NCBI RefSeq assembly: GCF_029948125.1
Contig: NZ_JASAMB010000001.1
Coordinates: forward strand, 558,001-622,000
DNA from: Catellatospora sp. KI3
Lineage (GTDB): Bacteria > Actinomycetota > Actinomycetes > Mycobacteriales > Micromonosporaceae
Length of the DNA stretch: 64,000 bases
Direction of reading: 5' to 3'
The translations under genes and the position numbers were made by a program. Below are positions 46,340 to 54,217 of this stretch, piece after piece (the stretch's first letter is position 1; the number at the start of each line of letters is the position of its first letter). Below the pieces are notes generated by a model. That model was not told the origin of the DNA. It was given only the letters and a program-made list of their open reading frames with translations, and made no database searches.

Positions 46340-47278
46340 GTGAGCAGCACACGTCTCGACCAGCCCGCCTGGGGCTTCGGCCTCGCCACCGTCAGCGGCG
46401 AGCAGACCCTCGAAGTGTGGTTCCCCGCCGGTCAGCTCGGCCTGGGCACCCCGACCGCGTCCGCCCCGGACCTCAAGGCCGCCGAGCCGGCCCTGCCCGG
46501 CCTGCGCGTGGTCCCGGTCACCGTGTCGATCGCGTCACTGGCCGACGCGCCCGCCGACACCGCCGACGCCTACCTGCGCCTGCACCTGCTGTCGCACCGG
46601 ATCATCCGGCCGCACCAGGCCAACCTGGACGGCGTCTTCGGCCTGCTGCCCAACAACGCCTGGACCTCGGCTGGGGTCTGCCCGCCCGAGCGCGTCGACG
46701 AGCTACGCCTCATCGAGCGCGCCGCGGGCCGGCACCTGGCCGTGTACGGCGTGGACAAGTTCCCGCGCATGACCGACTACGTCGTGCCCGCCGGGGTGCG
46801 CATCGCCGACGCCGACCGGGTCCGCCTCGGCGCGCACCTGTCGGCGGGCACCACCGTCATGCAGAAGGGCTTCGTCAACTTCAACGCCGGCACGCTGGGC
46901 ACCTCCATGGTCGAGGGCAGCATCTCGGCCGGGGTCGTGGTCGGCGAGGGCGCCGACATCGGCGCGGGCGCCTCGATCATGGGTACCCTGTCCGGTGGCG
47001 GCAAGGAGGTCATCTCGGTCGGCCAGCGCAGCCTGGTCGGCGCGAACGCGGGCATCGGCATCTCGCTGGGCGACGACTGCGTCGTCGAGGCGGGCTGCTA
47101 CGTGACCGCCGGAAGCAAGGTGCTGCTCGTCGAGACCGGCGAGGTCGTCAAGGCGTTGACCCTGTCGGGCGCGTCGAACGTGCTGTTCCTGCGCAACTCG
47201 GTGACCGGGGCGATCGAGGCCCGGCCGCGCACCGGCACGGGCATCGTGCTCAACGCCGCCCTGCACGCCAACGACTGA
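46340..47278 (+). CDS. dapD: Tetrahydrodipicolinate N-succinyltransferase
   Basis: A 312-residue acyltransferase of the actinobacterial DapD type. The first ~120 residues are an alpha/beta domain; the rest is a left-handed beta-helix of hexapeptide repeats (VRIADADRVRLGAHLSAGTT, VVVGEGADIGAGASIMG, VGANAGIGISLGDDC). It transfers succinate from succinyl-CoA to tetrahydrodipicolinate. The start is GTG 46340. The pathway partner DapE is divergent and DapC lies 6 kb downstream across the accessory cassette. Confidence 0.96.
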   Translation: MSSTRLDQPAWGFGLATVSGEQTLEVWFPAGQLGLGTPTASAPDLKAAEPALPGLRVVPVTVSIASLADAPADTADAYLRLHLLSHRIIRPHQANLDGVFGLLPNNAWTSAGVCPPERVDELRLIERAAGRHLAVYGVDKFPRMTDYVVPAGVRIADADRVRLGAHLSAGTTVMQKGFVNFNAGTLGTSMVEGSISAGVVVGEGADIGAGASIMGTLSGGGKEVISVGQRSLVGANAGIGISLGDDCVVEAGCYVTAGSKVLLVETGEVVKALTLSGASNVLFLRNSVTGAIEARPRTGTGIVLNAALHAND

Positions 47279-47346: not shown

Positions 47347-48273
47347 GTGGACCCGAGACGGATAGCGGGGCTGCTCGACGCGCCCGGCTGCCGTCGCAGG
47401 CTGGCCGTGGACGTCTCCGGGATCGAGCCCGCCGTGCTCGCCGCCGCGGTCGGGGCGGCCGAGGGCGGGCAGAGCCCGTACGCGCGCGAGCGGGACGGCA
47501 CGTTCGCGCAGCTCGCCCTGGCCCGGCTGCCCGAGCTCGCCGCGCGGCACCTGGGTGTGCGGGCTGAGGCCGTGGTCGAGACCGACGAGCTGCCCAGCGG
47601 GGCCGGGCTGTGGTCGTGGCGGGCGCCGAAGCTGCGCCTGGGCGACACCGACCTCACCGTGGACCGGGTGCTGCTGGTCGGGGACGGGACGCGGCTGCAC
47701 CCGATCGAGACCAGGTCGTACGCGTGCCTGGACGGCCAGGCAGACCCGACCAAGGTCGCGGGCACGGCCCGGGAGCTGGCCGTCACCGTGGCCGCGCTGC
47801 GCCAGGCCGCCGACGAGCCGGACCAGGTCAGCAGCGCCTGCCTGCTGGTGCTGCCGCGCAACTTCGGCCTCAACCCGGTCGGCACCACGCTGGACGTGGC
47901 GCCGCAGCTGCGGCGGCTGCGCTGGGTGCTCGACCGGCTGAACGCCGGCACCGACCGCATCTCCGCCGCCCTCGAAGGACCCGAGCTGGTCGGCGCGCTG
48001 GGCCGGGTGCCCGCCCGGTTCGGCGACGGATGCCCGAGCTGCGCGGTGTACCCGTACTGCCGGGGCGACGCCGAGCAGTCCGGCGCCGCCGCCCGCGCCG
48101 GAGCCACCGTGGCCAACCTGTGCGGCCCGGTCGGCCTGGCGGCCGACGCCCTGGCCCTGGCCCACGGCGACCGCGTCCCCGGCGACGAGACCGAGCACGC
48201 CATCGCCACCGAACTCTCCCGCGCCGCCCTCGCCTACACCCAAGCCAAAACCCGCTCCCAAGAGCCCTCATGA
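47347..48273 (+). CDS. Fe-S cluster RecB/Cas4-like nuclease-related protein
   Basis: A 308-residue protein with Cys15 (DAPGCRRRL) and the cluster Cys229-x2-Cys232-x5-Cys238 (CPSCAVYPYC), the 4Fe-4S pattern of Cas4/AddB nucleases. Between them lies a plausible PD-(D/E)xK core: Asp106 (TVDRVLLV) and, 15 residues later, IETRSY where the usual Lys would be; Arg123 takes its place, so activity is uncertain. GGAGG lies eight bases before the GTG. It is first in a group of three co-directional genes ending in a helicase. Related nucleases act with helicases in repair and phage defence. Confidence 0.65.
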   Translation: MDPRRIAGLLDAPGCRRRLAVDVSGIEPAVLAAAVGAAEGGQSPYARERDGTFAQLALARLPELAARHLGVRAEAVVETDELPSGAGLWSWRAPKLRLGDTDLTVDRVLLVGDGTRLHPIETRSYACLDGQADPTKVAGTARELAVTVAALRQAADEPDQVSSACLLVLPRNFGLNPVGTTLDVAPQLRRLRWVLDRLNAGTDRISAALEGPELVGALGRVPARFGDGCPSCAVYPYCRGDAEQSGAAARAGATVANLCGPVGLAADALALAHGDRVPGDETEHAIATELSRAALAYTQAKTRSQEPS

Positions 48274-48287
48274 TCCACCCATCGACG

Positions 48288-48338
48288 TTAAGAAGGGGCC
48301 CTTCCACCACGCATTGCGATAAGAAGGGGCCCTTCCTT
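48288..48338. repeat. Intergenic palindrome, family A, copy 3
   Basis: Two near-palindromic cores AAGAAGGGGCCCTTCC at 48289-48305 and 48321-48336, in direct rather than inverted orientation and separated by ACCACGCATTGCGAT. It sits between the first and second genes of the helicase group. Confidence 0.8.
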
Positions 48339-48364
48339 TCCTCGCGGAGCGGGGTGGGTGGGGC

Positions 48365-49786
48365 GTGAGCCTCGACGTCTACCAGCGGCTGCTGGCGCTG
48401 CAGCGGCGCCGGGCCGTGCCGGCCGCGTCGCGGGCGCACCGGCACCTGTCCCAGCGGCCGTGGGTGCTGGTCGGATACCACCTGGCCGGTGAACCGTCCG
48501 CGCCGGTCGCGATCCGGTACGGGTCGTTCCGCGGCCAGCCGAAGCTGCTCGTCGTCGCCGAGCCGCGCGACCGCGACCAGCGCTTCGCCGCGCTCGGAGC
48601 GCTCGCCCGCGACCTGGCCACCTACGTGAGCCGCTACACCGAGACCGAGCCGGTGGTCCGCGTCGGCAACGGCCGCGACCTCGACGTCGACCACTGCTGC
48701 ACCGACGCCCCGCAGCTGGTGGTGCCGAACGAGGCCACCGCACACTGGCTCGACCTGCTCGGCCAGTACCTGCGCACCCTCGACGTAGACCCGGTGCTGC
48801 AGACCGCCGGGGCGCACCTGGGCTGGTTCGCCTCCCGGCGCCACCTGCCCGGCTCCAGTGCCGTGCTCACCGCCACCGACCTGCTGGCCACGCACTGGCG
48901 CACCGGCCAGCTGCCCACCGAGGACGGCCACCTGGGCCGCCTGCTCGCCTGGGTCGAACCGCCCGCCGGCCAGGACGCCTGGACCGCCGCGGCCGCCGCC
49001 GAGCAGCGCCCGCCCGCCGGGCCGGCCAGCGACCCCGAATGGGACCTGATGACGCTGCGCCCGGCGCTGGAGCGGGCCAAGCAGCTCGGCGACGTACGCC
49101 GGCTGAAGCTGGCCGCGGCCGAGGTGCTGGACCAGGCCTGGCGCGACACCTGGACCGCGCTGGACCTGGTCGCGCTGCTGCCGCCCGGCGGCCACACCGC
49201 CCAGCGCTGGGAGTCCGACCGCTGGTCCTGGACCCGGCACCGGGAGCGGGTCACCGCCGGCACGATCCGCTTCGGCGGCCGCCTGTCCGACGTGCCCGCG
49301 TTCCGGTTCCTGCACGAGCTGGAGACCCGGACCGTGGCCCTGGAGCGGCAGATGGCGCTGGACGATCCGCTGGTGATGGCGCGCTGGCTGGCCACCGGCG
49401 AGGCCGTCGCGGGCACGGTGATCAAGCGGGACCTGGAGCACACCGCGACCAGCGCCCGGGGCTCCGCGCTGCTGCGGCCGCTGCTGTGGCTGCGCACCCA
49501 GGGGTTCGACCGGCCCGCGGGCACCGAGCTGTGGCTGGGCAAGGTCGGTCTGACCGTACGCGCGTCCACGGTGGACACCGTCGAGCTGATGGTCACCAGC
49601 GGCGCCGTGACCAGGCCGAAGTTCAACCTGCTGCCCGAGTGCGACGCCGAGGTGGTGCTGGCGCCGTTCGGGCCGCAGCAGTACTTCCCCGACAACCTGC
49701 CCGAGGAGCTGCCCTGGCCCGCCCGCCCGACGCGGCTCGCCGCACCGGCCGGGGACGCCGAACCGGCCGGGGACACCGGTGAGTGA
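48365..49786 (+). CDS. Unknown protein of the helicase cassette
   Basis: A 473-residue soluble protein without a recognised domain. It begins MSLDVYQRLLALQRRRAVPA, has a mixed alpha/beta first third (WVLVGYHLAGEPSAPVAIRY, two adjacent Cys near residue 110) and a helical remainder with many Trp and Arg (WRTGQLPTEDGHLGRLLAWV; TGEAVAGTVIKRDLEHTATS). The C-terminus contains PFGPQQYFPDNLPEELPW. It overlaps the helicase gene by 8 bases, so the products are probably made in fixed ratio and may form a complex. No membrane span or nuclease motif is evident. Weak ribosome site before GTG 48365. Confidence 0.7.
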   Translation: MSLDVYQRLLALQRRRAVPAASRAHRHLSQRPWVLVGYHLAGEPSAPVAIRYGSFRGQPKLLVVAEPRDRDQRFAALGALARDLATYVSRYTETEPVVRVGNGRDLDVDHCCTDAPQLVVPNEATAHWLDLLGQYLRTLDVDPVLQTAGAHLGWFASRRHLPGSSAVLTATDLLATHWRTGQLPTEDGHLGRLLAWVEPPAGQDAWTAAAAAEQRPPAGPASDPEWDLMTLRPALERAKQLGDVRRLKLAAAEVLDQAWRDTWTALDLVALLPPGGHTAQRWESDRWSWTRHRERVTAGTIRFGGRLSDVPAFRFLHELETRTVALERQMALDDPLVMARWLATGEAVAGTVIKRDLEHTATSARGSALLRPLLWLRTQGFDRPAGTELWLGKVGLTVRASTVDTVELMVTSGAVTRPKFNLLPECDAEVVLAPFGPQQYFPDNLPEELPWPARPTRLAAPAGDAEPAGDTGE

Positions 49787-51056
49787 GGCCGCACGGCGGC
49801 ACGAGGCCGCCATCGAGCAGGTCTGGGACCGGGTACGCGGCACCGACCGCGCCGTCGTCGTCGACTCCCCGCCCGGCGCGGGCAAGTCGACGCTGGTCCG
49901 CGAACTGACCAAGCGGCTGGTCGCCGCCGGTGAGCACGTGCCGGTGGTGGTGCAGACCAACGACCAGGCCGACGACCTGGTGATCGCACTGGCCGCCGCC
50001 GGGCTGCGCACCGGCCGCCTGCACGGCACCGAGTGGGCGCCGCCGCCGCGCTGGCCCCGCGACCGGGTGCGGACCGGGACGAAGCTCGGCGAGCTGGGCG
50101 GCTGCGACGTCATCGTCGGGACGGCCGCGAAGTGGGCCTACGTCAAGGCCGACGACCGGGTGTGGCCGCTGGGGATCATCGACGAGTCGTACCAGATGTC
50201 GGCCGCCGCCCTGGTCCGGGTCGGGCACCTGTTCGACCGGCTGCTGCTCGTCGGGGACCCGGGGCAGCTCGCCCCGTTCACCGTCGCCGACGAGCACTCG
50301 GTGCGCTCGCTGGCCACCTGGCCGCTGGACACCGCGGCGGGCACGGTGCTGCGCCACCACCCGGACACCCCGGTCATCCCGCTGCCGGTGAGCTGGCGGC
50401 TGGCCCCGCACACCGCCCCGGTCATCTCCGACGCGTTCTACACCCGACCGTTCCGCGCCGGCGCCGACGCGCAGGACCGGCGGCTCGACCTGCACACGCT
50501 GGCCCATCCGGCGCTGTCCCAGGCGGCCGAGACCGGCTGGGCGCTGCTGGAACTGCCCGCCGCGCACGTGCCGCGTACCGACCCGGCGCTGGTCTCCGTG
50601 CTCGCCGACCTGACCCACCAGCTCGTCACCGCCGACGCGTCCACCGTGGACCCATCCGGCGGGCGGCCGCTGACCAGCGCCGACATCGCCGTAGGGGTGG
50701 TGCACCGGGACCAGAAGGCACAGGTGGAGGCCGCGCTGCAGCGGCTCGGCGTGACCGGGGTGACCGTGGACACCGCCAACCGGCTGCAGGGCCGGCAGTA
50801 CGAGGTCGTGCTGGCCTGGCATCCGCTCAGCGGCCGCCGCGACGCCAGTGCGTTCCACCTGGAGGCCGGGCGGCTGTGCGTGCTCGCGTCCCGGCACCGG
50901 CAGGCCTGCGTCGTGGTGACCCGCGCCGGGATCACCGACCAGCTCCACGCCTACCCCGCCGCCGAACCGGTCTGGCTCGGCACGGATCCGCCCCAGGTGG
51001 ACGGCTGGGAAGCCAACCGCGTCTTCCTCGACCGCCTCGCCCCGTTCCGCGTCTGA
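49779..51056 (+). CDS. Compact SF1 DNA/RNA helicase (Upf1-like)
   Basis: A 425-residue superfamily 1B-type helicase with all core motifs: SPPGAGKST (Walker A, ~30-38), IIDESYQM (II, ~133), VGDPGQLAPF (III), TVDTANRLQGRQYEVVL (V) and LASRHRQACVVVTR (VI). It lacks large 1B/2B insertions and accessory domains, so it is close to the minimum for a helicase. The partner proteins encoded immediately upstream may supply nuclease and targeting functions. The GTG start lies inside the end of the previous gene. No housekeeping helicase has this layout, and its location between dapD and dapC points to an accessory genome-conflict role. Confidence 0.85.
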   Translation: MSEAARRHEAAIEQVWDRVRGTDRAVVVDSPPGAGKSTLVRELTKRLVAAGEHVPVVVQTNDQADDLVIALAAAGLRTGRLHGTEWAPPPRWPRDRVRTGTKLGELGGCDVIVGTAAKWAYVKADDRVWPLGIIDESYQMSAAALVRVGHLFDRLLLVGDPGQLAPFTVADEHSVRSLATWPLDTAAGTVLRHHPDTPVIPLPVSWRLAPHTAPVISDAFYTRPFRAGADAQDRRLDLHTLAHPALSQAAETGWALLELPAAHVPRTDPALVSVLADLTHQLVTADASTVDPSGGRPLTSADIAVGVVHRDQKAQVEAALQRLGVTGVTVDTANRLQGRQYEVVLAWHPLSGRRDASAFHLEAGRLCVLASRHRQACVVVTRAGITDQLHAYPAAEPVWLGTDPPQVDGWEANRVFLDRLAPFRV

Positions 51057-51201: not shown

Positions 51202-51732
51202 TCAGTTCAGGAGGGAAGCGCGCAGGCGGGGCTCCAACAGGATGCGGTGCAGTCGCCGATCGTGGCGGAACACCACCTCCGCGCCCGGCTGCACGGCCGC
51301 GAGCAGCATCGCGGTGATCACCTCGGCGAACGGCTGCATTCTGATCGTCAGCAGGCACTCGTTCATCCGGCGCCGGTCCCCGAGCCGCATGGCGTCATGC
51401 CACCCTGGCAGCGCCAGCTCGATCACCCGTCGTGCCTGCTGACGTCCATCCACCAGCACCGCCCGGTTCAGGCGTAGTACGACGATCGTGTGCTGCCCCT
51501 TGTCGGTGCGCGGCCGGTACTCCCCCACCGACAGCGCCAGGGCCAGATGGTCGGAAGGATCGTCCACCGTCGGATCGATCAGCAGATCACGCAGGCTCTG
51601 GCGGGGTTGAGCACGGCGCCACAGACTTCTGGCGTGCCGCACCCGATCGGCGGCGGCACCGATCTCACCGTTGAGCTGCTTCGTGCGTACGTCCAGCTCC
51701 ACCGAGAGCGGCGGTCGGATGATCCGGATCAC
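51202..51732 (-). CDS. PtuB-like partner protein lacking the HNH segment
   Basis: A 176-residue protein starting MIRIIRPPLSVELDV, as do HNH-type partners of AAA ATPases (TIGR02646-like, Septu PtuB). The C-terminal part fits the same family: LIDPTVDDPSDHLALALSVG, TDKGQHTIVVLRLNR and GRQQARRVIELALPGWHD. The expected central HNH core (CxxC, DHxxP, second CxxC, about 40-60 residues) is absent; the text jumps from WRRAQPRQSLRD to LLIDPT. No Cys pair remains. So either it is an internal deletion or a non-nuclease variant. It lies six bases behind the ATPase gene. Confidence 0.6.
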   Translation of the reverse strand: MIRIIRPPLSVELDVRTKQLNGEIGAAADRVRHARSLWRRAQPRQSLRDLLIDPTVDDPSDHLALALSVGEYRPRTDKGQHTIVVLRLNRAVLVDGRQQARRVIELALPGWHDAMRLGDRRRMNECLLTIRMQPFAEVITAMLLAAVQPGAEVVFRHDRRLHRILLEPRLRASLLN

Positions 51733-51738
51733 CGGCCG

Positions 51739-53079
51739 TCACACCCTGTTCTTGCTGAACCGCCGCGCCGCGTCCCGAGCCGCCGAGGCGGGTGAGCTGG
51801 TCAGCTGCTCCTGCAACCGGGTATAGCGCGCGATCTCATCCTGACTCGCATCACCCGCAAGGACCCGAATCTCCAGGTCCGCGAGTTCACGACGCATACG
51901 AGCCGCCTTCTCCGAGTACGGCTGGTCCAGGCCGAACAACTCCGACATGACCGCGTCGTCACCCGTGCCGTAGACGATCCGCTCGTAGAGATCCTGGTCG
52001 ACCACCCGCGGCGGTTCCTGCTCGTCAGGGCCCGGCAGGCGGATCAGGCCGCCTGGGTCTGCCGCCTGGCAGATGTATGGGCTGTGCGAGGTGACGATGA
52101 ACTGGATGCCCGGAAAGTGCTGCTTGAGCCACACGCCAATGCGCTGCTGCCAGGAAACGTGCAGATGCGCGTCGACTTCGTCGATGATCACTACGCCAGG
52201 GGCCGTGACCACGGTTCGACCCTGTTCGAGCGCGCTTGGCACGCCGCCGAAGGCCATGTGGATCTGGCGGATGATGTCAACGGTCAGCGCCGCCACGGTG
52301 CGATACCCATCACTCATCTCCCGGAGGGGATATGGATGACCGCCGTGGCTTACCCACAGCCCTTCGGAGTCGACGTGGTGTATCCGGTAGCCGTCCGGCA
52401 GTAGACCGTCCCCGAGCACAGCCAGAACCAGGTCTTTCAACTCTGCGGCGCCTGGCCGATGCTCGAGTGATCTCAAATGCTGCTCCACCAGCCAGGTCAC
52501 GCCTTCAGCCAGCGACGCATCCTCGTGGAAAAGAGTTGCCGCCCGAGCTGCACCAGGGCTCGCGGTGAGCCGTTGCGCATCAGTAGCTCCGCCGGTCAGC
52601 CGCCGGAACGGACCGTAGGCCGCACAGAACGGAACTCCCTGCTCGTCTTCCCAGATGTCAGCCCGCATACCGGTCACTGCATGCATGAGGGCCGGCTGGC
52701 GCTCCGCCCCCTCTTCGCCGAGCCGACGCCAGCCGAGACCAACAGCGATCTTGGAATCGGATCCCGCCGGGGCCCCGTTCCCGTTCTCCGCAGCCGTGCC
52801 GGACGAGGTCGGTACCGCTAGATCCAAATCGACCCAGCCGATATCCCGGCCCCGCGAGATCCAGTGCCGGAAGTCCGGTACCAGCGTTCGCGCTGTCGAA
52901 GGTCCGGTCAACGCGAGTGCCATGGCCCGCAGCAGCGAGGTCTTGCCGGAACCGTTGCGCCCGGCGATGACGGTCCAGCCGGCACGACTCCCGTCGCCAC
53001 GCGCGGCGAACGTCAGATCGACAGCACGCTCACCACTGAAGCCACGAATGTCCGACACCTCGACCCGAGAGATGTGCAT
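51739..53079 (-). CDS. AAA/ABC-type ATPase resembling Septu PtuA
   Basis: A 446-residue ATPase of the ABC/SMC-like AAA_21 group. Walker A is AGRNGSGKTSLLRAMALAL (~residue 40), the ABC signature is LREMSDGYRTVAALT, and Walker B is GVVIIDEVDAHLHVSWQQ with D-loop and the His switch IVTSHSPYI. There is no nuclease domain of its own. Pairing with a TIGR02646-like gene is the PtuA/PtuB layout of Septu anti-phage systems. G+C is lower than in neighbours (one 60-base line at 52,141 has 37 G+C against 47 at 50,281), suggesting acquisition. GGAGG precedes the ATG; it starts 34 bases behind dapC. Confidence 0.85.
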   Translation of the reverse strand: MHISRVEVSDIRGFSGERAVDLTFAARGDGSRAGWTVIAGRNGSGKTSLLRAMALALTGPSTARTLVPDFRHWISRGRDIGWVDLDLAVPTSSGTAAENGNGAPAGSDSKIAVGLGWRRLGEEGAERQPALMHAVTGMRADIWEDEQGVPFCAAYGPFRRLTGGATDAQRLTASPGAARAATLFHEDASLAEGVTWLVEQHLRSLEHRPGAAELKDLVLAVLGDGLLPDGYRIHHVDSEGLWVSHGGHPYPLREMSDGYRTVAALTVDIIRQIHMAFGGVPSALEQGRTVVTAPGVVIIDEVDAHLHVSWQQRIGVWLKQHFPGIQFIVTSHSPYICQAADPGGLIRLPGPDEQEPPRVVDQDLYERIVYGTGDDAVMSELFGLDQPYSEKAARMRRELADLEIRVLAGDASQDEIARYTRLQEQLTSSPASAARDAARRFSKNRV

Positions 53080-53113: not shown

Positions 53114-54217
53114 TCAGGACAGGCGGGCGACCACCGTACGCACGCGTTCGTCGGTGGCGGTCAGGGCGACGCGGACGTGCCGCGCGCCCTTGGGGCCGTA
53201 GATCTCGCCGGGGGCGACGAGGATGCCGCGGTCGGCGAACCAGTCGGTGGTGTCCCAGCAGGCCTCGCCCCGGGTCACCCACAGGTACAGCCCGGCCTCG
53301 GAGTGGTCGACCGTGAACCCGGCGCCCTGCAGCGCGGGCAGCAGCAGCTCGCGGCGGGCCGCGTACCGCAGGCGCTGCTCGTCGGCGTGGGACTCGTCGG
53401 CCAGCGCCGCGATCATCGCCGCCTGCACCGGGGCGGGCATGATCATGCCGGCGTGCTTGCGTACGGCCAGCAGCTCGCCGACCAGCCCAGGGTCGCCCGC
53501 CACGAACCCGGCGCGGTATCCGGCCAGGTTGGAGCGCTTGGACAGCGAATGCACCGCGAGCACCCCGGCGTAGTCCCCGCCGCACAGCGACAGCACCGAT
53601 TCGGGCTGCGCGGTCCACGGCAGGGTGAGGTAGCACTCGTCGCTGGCGAGCACCGCGCCGGTCTCGCGGGCATACCCGATCCAGGCGCGCATCTCGCCGG
53701 CGGAGGCGACCCGGCCGTGCGGGTTGCCGGGCGAGTTGATCCAGATCAGGGCGGGTCGCTCCCCGGCGGGCGGGGTGTCGGCGCGCAGCACGCGCGCTCC
53801 GGCCAGCCGCACCCCGACCTCGTAGGTCGGGTAGCAGATCTCGGGGATGACCACGGTGTCGTCGGGGCCCAGCCCGAGCAGCGTGGGCAGCCAGCCGACC
53901 AGCTCCTTCGAGCCGATCGAGGGCAGTACGGCGAAGCCGGGTTCGGCGCGGCAGGCGCGCGCGGTCCAGGCGGCGATCTCCTGCCGCAGCTCGGGCGTGC
54001 CCGCGGTCAGCGGGTAGCCGGGCGAGTCAGACGCCTCGGCCAGCGCCGTGCGGATGAGCGCGGGCACCGGGTCGACCGGGGTGCCGATGGAGAGGTCGAC
54101 GATGCCGTCGGGGTGGGCCGCGGCGCGCCGCTTGGACGGCTCCAGCAGGTCCCACGGAAAGTCGGGCAGGCCGGCGGAGACCCTCCGCCGGCCGGAACCC
54201 GTGGCGCCGGTGCTCAG
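53114..54217 (-). CDS. dapC: Succinyldiaminopimelate aminotransferase
   Basis: A fold-type I PLP aminotransferase of about 367 residues. PLP Lys lies in VHSLSKRSNLAGYRAGF, the substrate/PLP contacts in SPGNPHGR and SDECYLTL. It transfers an amino group to N-succinyl-2-amino-6-ketopimelate for lysine synthesis, next to dapD and dapE. The conserved N-terminus (VSAGLPDFPWDLL...DGIVDLSIGTPVDP) extends upstream of the first GTG (54067), and the only suitable codon is CTG at 54217, six bases behind AAGGAAGG and overlapping the ferredoxin stop (CTGA). So CTG initiation with coupling is proposed; GTG 54067 would truncate 50 residues. Confidence 0.88.
   Translation of the reverse strand: MSTGATGSGRRRVSAGLPDFPWDLLEPSKRRAAAHPDGIVDLSIGTPVDPVPALIRTALAEASDSPGYPLTAGTPELRQEIAAWTARACRAEPGFAVLPSIGSKELVGWLPTLLGLGPDDTVVIPEICYPTYEVGVRLAGARVLRADTPPAGERPALIWINSPGNPHGRVASAGEMRAWIGYARETGAVLASDECYLTLPWTAQPESVLSLCGGDYAGVLAVHSLSKRSNLAGYRAGFVAGDPGLVGELLAVRKHAGMIMPAPVQAAMIAALADESHADEQRLRYAARRELLLPALQGAGFTVDHSEAGLYLWVTRGEACWDTTDWFADRGILVAPGEIYGPKGARHVRVALTATDERVRTVVARLS

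Follow-up and report, generated by a model that had tools for sequence, protein, structure and literature searches.

Three open reading frames (ORFs) on the forward strand of Catellatospora sp. KI3 were examined within a stretch of 64,000 nucleotides (contig NZ_JASAMB010000001.1, positions 558,001 to 622,000; hereafter the window) of this 8.2-Mb genome. The genes are referred to as genes 1, 2 and 3 (G1, G2 and G3) and together as the trio (Table 1). Genes 2 and 3 are joined by an overlap of 8 bases, and a GC-rich repeat of 77 bases lies between genes 1 and 2; at least 44 other copies of this repeat were found in the genome (a lower bound, as 40 of 1992 candidates were scored), and an 87-base stretch around it folds slightly better than its shuffled versions (z -2.2). 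An earlier reading of the letters alone (the original prediction) had described an iron-sulphur (Fe-S) RecB-like protein, a protein of no recognisable domain and a superfamily 1 (SF1) helicase overlapping its neighbour by 8 bases, and this description was borne out: (i) G1 of the window carries Cys15, C229-x2-C232-x5-C238, Asp106 and I120-E-T-R-S-Y125; (ii) G1 and G2 were found to match no family of Pfam, NCBIfam or PADLOC above cut-off, with DUF5726 (E 0.16) as the sole library match of G2; and (iii) G3 exceeded the cut-offs of the Pfam models AAA_30, AAA_11, AAA_12 and Viral_helicase1, with its Walker A, DE, GDPGQ and SRHR motifs invariant across 20 aligned homologues.

Protein families of the trio and loss of catalytic residues in gene 1

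When a G3 profile was compared with the PDB, DNA2 ranked first (5eaw, E 5.4e-14), followed by SMUBP-2 (IGHMBP2) and UPF1; with the window protein alone as query, DNA2 was the sole match at E ≤ 0.01. G3 is by these comparisons a DNA2/Upf1-type SF1 helicase. G2 displayed no homology to G1 or Cas4 in the comparisons made, and in the PDB searches G1, G2 and G0 (an additional gene of fuller loci, described below) gave only chance-level or helical-hairpin matches.

G1 was examined in an alignment of 146 rows (142 distinct; one locus is present under two entries and another occurs at each end of a chromosome), 12 of which form the group of the window: Catellatospora, Hamadaea-type, genus g10 and Actinocatenispora-type. 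The four cysteines (15, 229, 232 and 238) were detected in all 146 rows, including 12/12 of the window's group, as was an invariant F53. This layout is that of the four-cysteine iron staple of DNA2 and Bad, and an Fe-S cluster is predicted for G1 from it. The usual pattern in relatives consists of E54, D106, E121-x-K123 and Q143-x3-Y147 plus the four cysteines, in agreement with the 'iron-staple' RecB-type nuclease signature (PMC7430649); the active site of DNA2 comprises His164, Asp278, Glu299, Lys301 and Gln314 (PMC4716839). Outside the window's group, E54, D106, E121, K123 and Q143 were found together in 126/134 rows (123/130 distinct), and 37 further loci had all five residues in 36 cases and Asp54 for Glu54 in the other. 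Within the window's group the complete site was present in 0/12 rows. The window protein has A54, D106, E121, R123, E143 and T147, such that D106 and E121 are kept while the RecB catalytic motifs (motif I ligand, Asp, ExK and Gln) are incomplete. The earlier suggestion of a variant with Arg in place of the catalytic Lys was upheld in that Arg123 occurs in 12/12 rows of the group, as one of several catalytic losses.

Table 1. Positions in the window of the trio, the intervening repeat and the flanking genes
Feature	Positions	Strand	Description
Gene 1 (G1)	47347..48273	+	308 aa; predicted homologue of Fe-S 'iron-staple' RecB/Cas4/DNA2-type nucleases, catalytic site degenerate
Codon of G1 residue 123	47713..47715	+	Arg in window; Lys in 129/134 rows outside the window's group
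GC-rich dispersed repeat	48287..48363		Between genes 1 and 2
Gene 2 (G2)	48365..49786	+	473 aa; undescribed family
Gene 3 (G3)	49779..51056	+	425 aa; SF1 helicase, motifs intact, closest solved structure DNA2
dapD	46340..47278	+	Upstream neighbour; DapD_actino 435.3 bits, just under the cut-off of 441.5; context, outside the system
ptuB-like gene	51202..51732	-	Matches the PtuB model over part of its length only; context, outside the system
ptuA-like ATPase of Septu pair	51739..53079	-	PDLC00269, E 2.9e-170, full-length match; context, outside the system
dapC	53114..54067		Downstream of the trio

Distribution, linkage and fuller forms of the trio

G1 and G2 were found in the same 91/150 genomes of the family, and G3 in 92, that is, in 90 of the 91 plus two more, where it lies on a contig fragment (G094) or is weakly matched (G019, E 6e-4). 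The sole family genome with genes 1 and 2 and no G3 (G025) has a contig that ends just after gene 2. All three genes were present in 11/11 sampled genomes of Catellatospora; in one of these (G118), the match to G3 was split in two (residues 1-77 and 74-425), for which a frameshift or a sequencing error is a possible cause. At wider range, G2 was detected in 71/394 genomes of the class, in 11/296 of the phylum, all inside the class, and in 114/121 genomes of one genus (that of G167), which we infer to be Streptomyces because its rows adjoin named Streptomyces loci in trees. A scan of the collection with G2 gave at least 505 confirmed stretches, and the best 80, which were kept, are mostly from Streptomyces, with Kitasatospora, Actinomadura, Nocardia, Planobispora and others also represented. 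Among 81 loci including the window, G1 was found in 78 and G3 in 79, the five misses being attributed to the position of these loci at the ends of the available DNA. The trio is conserved across actinomycetes to an extent beyond chance. The candidate locus SCO4111 of Streptomyces coelicolor was rejected, as it is TrmB.

The arrangement of the genes was compared in 76 loci with genes 1 and 2 (window counted), where these overlap by 4-13 bases in 61, lie apart in 13 (window included) and are fused in 2, counts that depend on the start codons chosen in our analysis. Among the 146 G1 rows, genes 1 and 2 share one ORF at 5 loci: three Hamadaea-type, one of genus g10 and one of Streptomyces. The link between genes 2 and 3 extends to plasmids. 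With a Streptomyces G3 as query, distant homologues, most of those shown near 33% identity, were found on 65/72,556 plasmid records, including 26 of Rhodococcus, 10 of Piscirickettsia and 7 of Mycobacterium. Four of these plasmids were opened (two Rhodococcus, Euzebya and Xylanimonas; L312-L315), and in 4/4 a protein of 388-448 aa is encoded directly upstream of the G3 homologue; a profile of the four upstream proteins matched G2 (probability 95.8, E 7e-9). In three of the four, an AAA ATPase and a VWA-like protein lie further upstream (as judged by a Pfam run for one). G1 was detected on 3 plasmid records, none of which is among the four opened, and we therefore consider genes 2 and 3 to be a unit that can occur where no gene 1 is recognisable.

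Fuller forms of the locus include an additional gene, G0, which encodes a protein of about 280 aa with no family above cut-off and which lies directly upstream of gene 1 in many loci. G0 was found in 39/150 family and 22/394 class genomes, and in none of the 11 genomes of Catellatospora. Of the 22 class genomes, 21 had their G0 loci examined, with genes 1-3 adjoining in 20; of 47 family rows, 31 were examined, with genes 1 and 2 adjoining in 29. Three further loci (L283, L285 and L302) carry G0 with no trio within 20 kb. SbcD and SbcC (Mre11-Rad50) were detected in the same 20-kb stretch in 5/20 class loci and 5/31 family loci, compared with a crude chance expectation of about 0.5% (for a 20-kb stretch, given two SbcD genes per 8 Mb). 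The five family cases belong to five genera, with SbcCD 3' of G3 and on the same strand. Around the core Streptomyces-type and Catellatospora loci, neither G0 nor SbcCD was found adjoining in the stretches compared.

Second copies of the module were also identified. In a set of 16 Streptomyces-type second-copy loci and plasmids, picked such that its counts are no rates, SbcCD stands beside 12 and a Wadjet JetABCD operon beside 4. A second SbcD was found beside the module in 11/11 chosen genomes, and because each of these also has a separate, more distant SbcD elsewhere, the SbcCD linked to the module represents an extra copy dedicated to it. The window genome has one SbcD, of the separate, unlinked kind. 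Six second copies (L205, L206, L207, L208, L210 and L211) lie near Streptomyces-type chromosome or plasmid ends beside SbcCD, and three of them also adjoin the JetABCD operon; one genome (G588) has a copy at each end. The available part of a paper on Streptomyces chromosome ends (PMC8743542) mentions ttrA and not SbcC. In five other Streptomyces-type second-copy rows (four distinct: L214, L217, L218 and L220, with L124 the same locus as L220), G1 has Leu121 and Arg123; these loci have G0 with SbcCD not adjoining, and the nuclease site may have been lost here a second time, independently.

The relationship of the degenerate to the intact forms was examined in a quick tree of 55 G3 rows. All 12 rows from the window's group, together with two rows whose G1 site is intact, formed a 14-row clade (SH-aLRT 100), inside which the tree does not resolve the 12 degenerate rows as monophyletic. 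Both intact-site rows (L128, from Micromonospora okii, and L097, which is also entered as L282) have G0 and SbcCD beside them. One Hamadaea-type genome (G080) encodes a fused copy whose site is degenerate plus a second G0-G1-G2-G3-SbcD-SbcC set with an intact G1 site. On the simplest reading of these sequences, the SbcCD-linked four-gene form would be old and the Catellatospora form derived.

A DNA2-like end-processing machine as the proposed function

We consider it probable, with reservations given below, that the trio encodes the subunits of one DNA2-like machine for the processing of DNA ends, split into separate chains, in which the nuclease has become structural in the window's group. 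G1 would be the Fe-S RecB-type nuclease subunit, G2 a dedicated partner of the motor and G3 the DNA2/Upf1-like SF1 helicase, such that the gene order would mirror the domain order of DNA2, namely a nuclease (~310 aa), a beta barrel and stalk, and a helicase (~450 aa; PMC4716839). The ancestral form probably opened and trimmed DNA ends together with G0 and a dedicated Mre11-Rad50 (SbcCD), and a role in repair is predicted for the machine. Relatives with an intact G1 would also cut DNA, some of them beside Mre11-Rad50. In Catellatospora and its kin, where G1 has lost catalytic residues and retained its Fe-S cysteines, the complex would instead act as a 5'-to-3' DNA motor whose first subunit is structural and guides or grips the DNA. 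In DNA2-type enzymes the motor is preceded by the nuclease, and with Bad it takes suppression of the nuclease for a processive, looping motor to emerge (PMC7430649); on these grounds the Catellatospora complex is proposed to be a natural nuclease-off motor. The nuclease-helicase complex of the original prediction stands as far as the linkage of an Fe-S RecB-type protein to an SF1 helicase is concerned; physical association of the subunits is predicted.

Several results weigh against this interpretation. First, hidden Markov model support for a nuclease fold in G1 is weak: PDDEXK_1 was matched at E ≤ 0.1 by 9/29 G1 members in one set (best 4.3e-4) and 20/58 in another (best 8.2e-4), and not by G1 of the window, and hhalign comparison of the G1 profile with small alignments (seven sequences of Cas4, three of RecB type) gave no significant result (E 0.34, 0.097 and 0.05). 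In these non-significant alignments, the ExK and Gln region was in register. Second, the C-terminal part of G2 matched nothing in the PDB by profile. Third, the best NCBIfam model for G3 was PLuB_AAA, which the window protein matched far below cut-off (E 6.1e-9); no relevant paper on the name 'PLuB' was found in the open literature. Fourth, in several genera G3 is unlinked from genes 1 and 2, lying ~3 kb (L085) to ~100 kb (G140) away or even on a separate contig, which is evidence against a strict operon. Fifth, SbcCD stands beside only 10/51 G0 loci in the less selected samples, and not beside the trio of the window.

The trio was compared with known helicase-nuclease systems. DNA2 acts with Mre11-Rad50. 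The likeness of the trio to eukaryotic DNA2 lies in the order nuclease-middle-helicase, the Fe-S nuclease and the similarity in helicase sequence, whereas DNA2 is a single chain with an OB domain (PMC4716839), and homology between G2 and either the barrel or the stalk of DNA2 was not demonstrated. Bad of Geobacillus similarly combines an Fe-S RecB-type nuclease with a DNA2-type helicase in a bacterium, but it is one chain of rare and sporadic occurrence, while the trio consists of three genes including G2 and is near-universal in one genus; a second, single-chain class of DNA2-like proteins is mentioned for Mycobacteria and Rhodococcus (PMC7430649). Also unlike Bad, some forms of the trio have a dedicated SbcCD beside them and one group has a degenerate nuclease. 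Fusion of nuclease and helicase in one chain, as in DNA2 and Bad, was not observed among the trio loci, where only genes 1 and 2 are fused. AddAB, AdnAB and RecBCD also bring a helicase and a RecB-type nuclease to DNA ends, and their helicases are UvrD-like, while none of the 18 Pfam matches of G3 was to a UvrD model, in contrast to the SF1A type. The Fe-S nuclease of AddB (PMC4716839, PMC7430649) is of the kind predicted for G1, and AdnAB, which is essential in Streptomyces (Zhang 2014, as cited in PMC5124664), is a locus separate from the trio. Cas4 and the Cas4-like proteins of pfam12705 belong to the RecB-type nucleases, and some of them have a UvrD-like or COG1205 helicase as partner (PMC5704561), of a subfamily other than that of G3; Streptomyces and Actinobacteria are absent from the main text of that paper. 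Membership of G1 in Cas4 was rejected, as PF01930 was matched neither in the window genome nor by G1 or its alignment members, and the profile comparisons were not significant; cas1 and cas2 were not found among the five neighbouring proteins scanned. In archaea, the HerA-NurA-Mre11-Rad50 operon links helicase and nuclease genes to Mre11-Rad50 as in the SbcCD-linked forms, although HerA and NurA are families unrelated to those of the trio.

A broader proposal, which we put forward more tentatively, is that G0-G1-G2-G3(-SbcD-SbcC) may be an undescribed bacterial counterpart, found across actinomycetes, of end resection by Mre11-Rad50 and DNA2, with Catellatospora and kin providing a natural nuclease-free DNA2-type motor that has kept its Fe-S fold. 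No named system with this gene order was found in the libraries or the open literature searched, as the original prediction had stated, and no paper in the open-access literature was recognised as describing the operon; subscription papers lay outside the scope.

Alternative explanations and the neighbouring genes

The original prediction had viewed the locus as a defence module, and a helicase-nuclease that senses and degrades the ends of plasmid or phage DNA, alone or with SbcCD and Wadjet, is the first alternative to be weighed. The trio was correctly placed between dapD and dapC beside a Septu-like pair, and defence would also be in line with its patchiness in the family, with the SbcCD and JetABCD operons beside chosen second copies and with the distant G3 homologues on plasmids. 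Against it stands the presence of the trio in all sampled Catellatospora and its near-universality in the Streptomyces-type genus. Neither G2 nor G3 had a match in phage records, nor G2 in viral contigs; G2 was present on only 3/72,556 plasmid records, one of them 11.9 Mb. PADLOC 2.0.0 provided no model for G0, G1 or G2 and weak helicase matches (MkoA and MkoC) for G3. In the window's group, G1, which would be the effector nuclease of such a system, is missing catalytic residues. The defence island was dropped as our leading interpretation because of the near-universality of the trio in one genus and its absence from phage records; it is not supported for the copy in the window, and we regard it as unlikely. 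An established repair role was likewise not found.

The neighbouring genes were examined for their relationship to the trio. dapD also stands to the left of the trio in those Catellatospora and Hamadaea-type loci that were compared. The downstream interval differs between the two Catellatospora relatives compared, one (L077) having the Septu pair and the other (L079) other genes instead; the pair was rejected as part of the system on account of its absence from this interval in L079, and its position beside the trio is incidental. While the PtuA ATPase is represented in full, the ptuB-like gene of the window lacks about 60 codons in frame compared with its 244-aa relative in L077, and the absent segment holds the CxxC/DHxxP/CxxCN (HNH-type) residues of that relative. 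Because of this loss, the Septu nuclease in the window looks inactive, and the pair has the ATPase of Septu without the HNH-type segment in its PtuB-like protein.

A second alternative is that the Catellatospora copy is a decaying remnant, with gene 1 turning into a pseudogene and the trio functionless. The ratio of nonsynonymous to synonymous substitution rates (dN/dS) was determined for five pairs of Catellatospora species and ranged over 0.15-0.56 for G1, 0.11-0.39 for G2, 0.06-0.24 for G3 and 0.04-0.25 for dapD, with G1 above both partners in every pair. This, together with the repeat between genes 1 and 2, the failure to find G0 in Catellatospora and the two-piece G3 of one genome, would fit decay. 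On the other hand, G1 is open in 11/11 genomes with dN/dS below 1 in all five pairs, its cysteines are kept in 12/12 rows despite the loss of catalytic residues, and G3 is constrained about as much as dapD. G1 is thus under constraint, but less than its partners, and a remnant is quite unlikely.

A machine that maintains the ends of linear replicons through telomere-linked processing would account for second copies 6.8-22 kb from the ends of single-contig chromosomes in three genomes (G628, G495 and, at both ends, G588) and ~4-13 kb from an end in two plasmid records; we consider it improbable, since further second copies (G549, G575 and G643, the last ~0.5 Mb from an end) have internal positions, as do the main Streptomyces-type copies, and plasmid NZ_CP027023.1 is entered as circular. 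Least credible of all is an RNA-directed machine, with an Upf1-like G3 on RNA and G1 as a non-nuclease Fe-S protein: IGHMBP2 (SMUBP-2) and UPF1 come next in relatedness to G3, but DNA2 is its best solved relative and the only one found by the single sequence, and SbcCD is a link to DNA.

If the split DNA2-like machine is real, then (i) Streptomyces-type bacteria, which rank among the best-studied bacteria, would carry a near-universal, uncharacterised helicase-nuclease besides the essential AdnAB; and (ii) DNA2-type end processing with a dedicated Mre11-Rad50 would exist in bacteria. The four protein families (G0, G1, G2 and G3) are offered for annotation. Furthermore, the natural series of intact and degenerate G1 may make it possible to test why DNA2-type enzymes place a nuclease before the motor.

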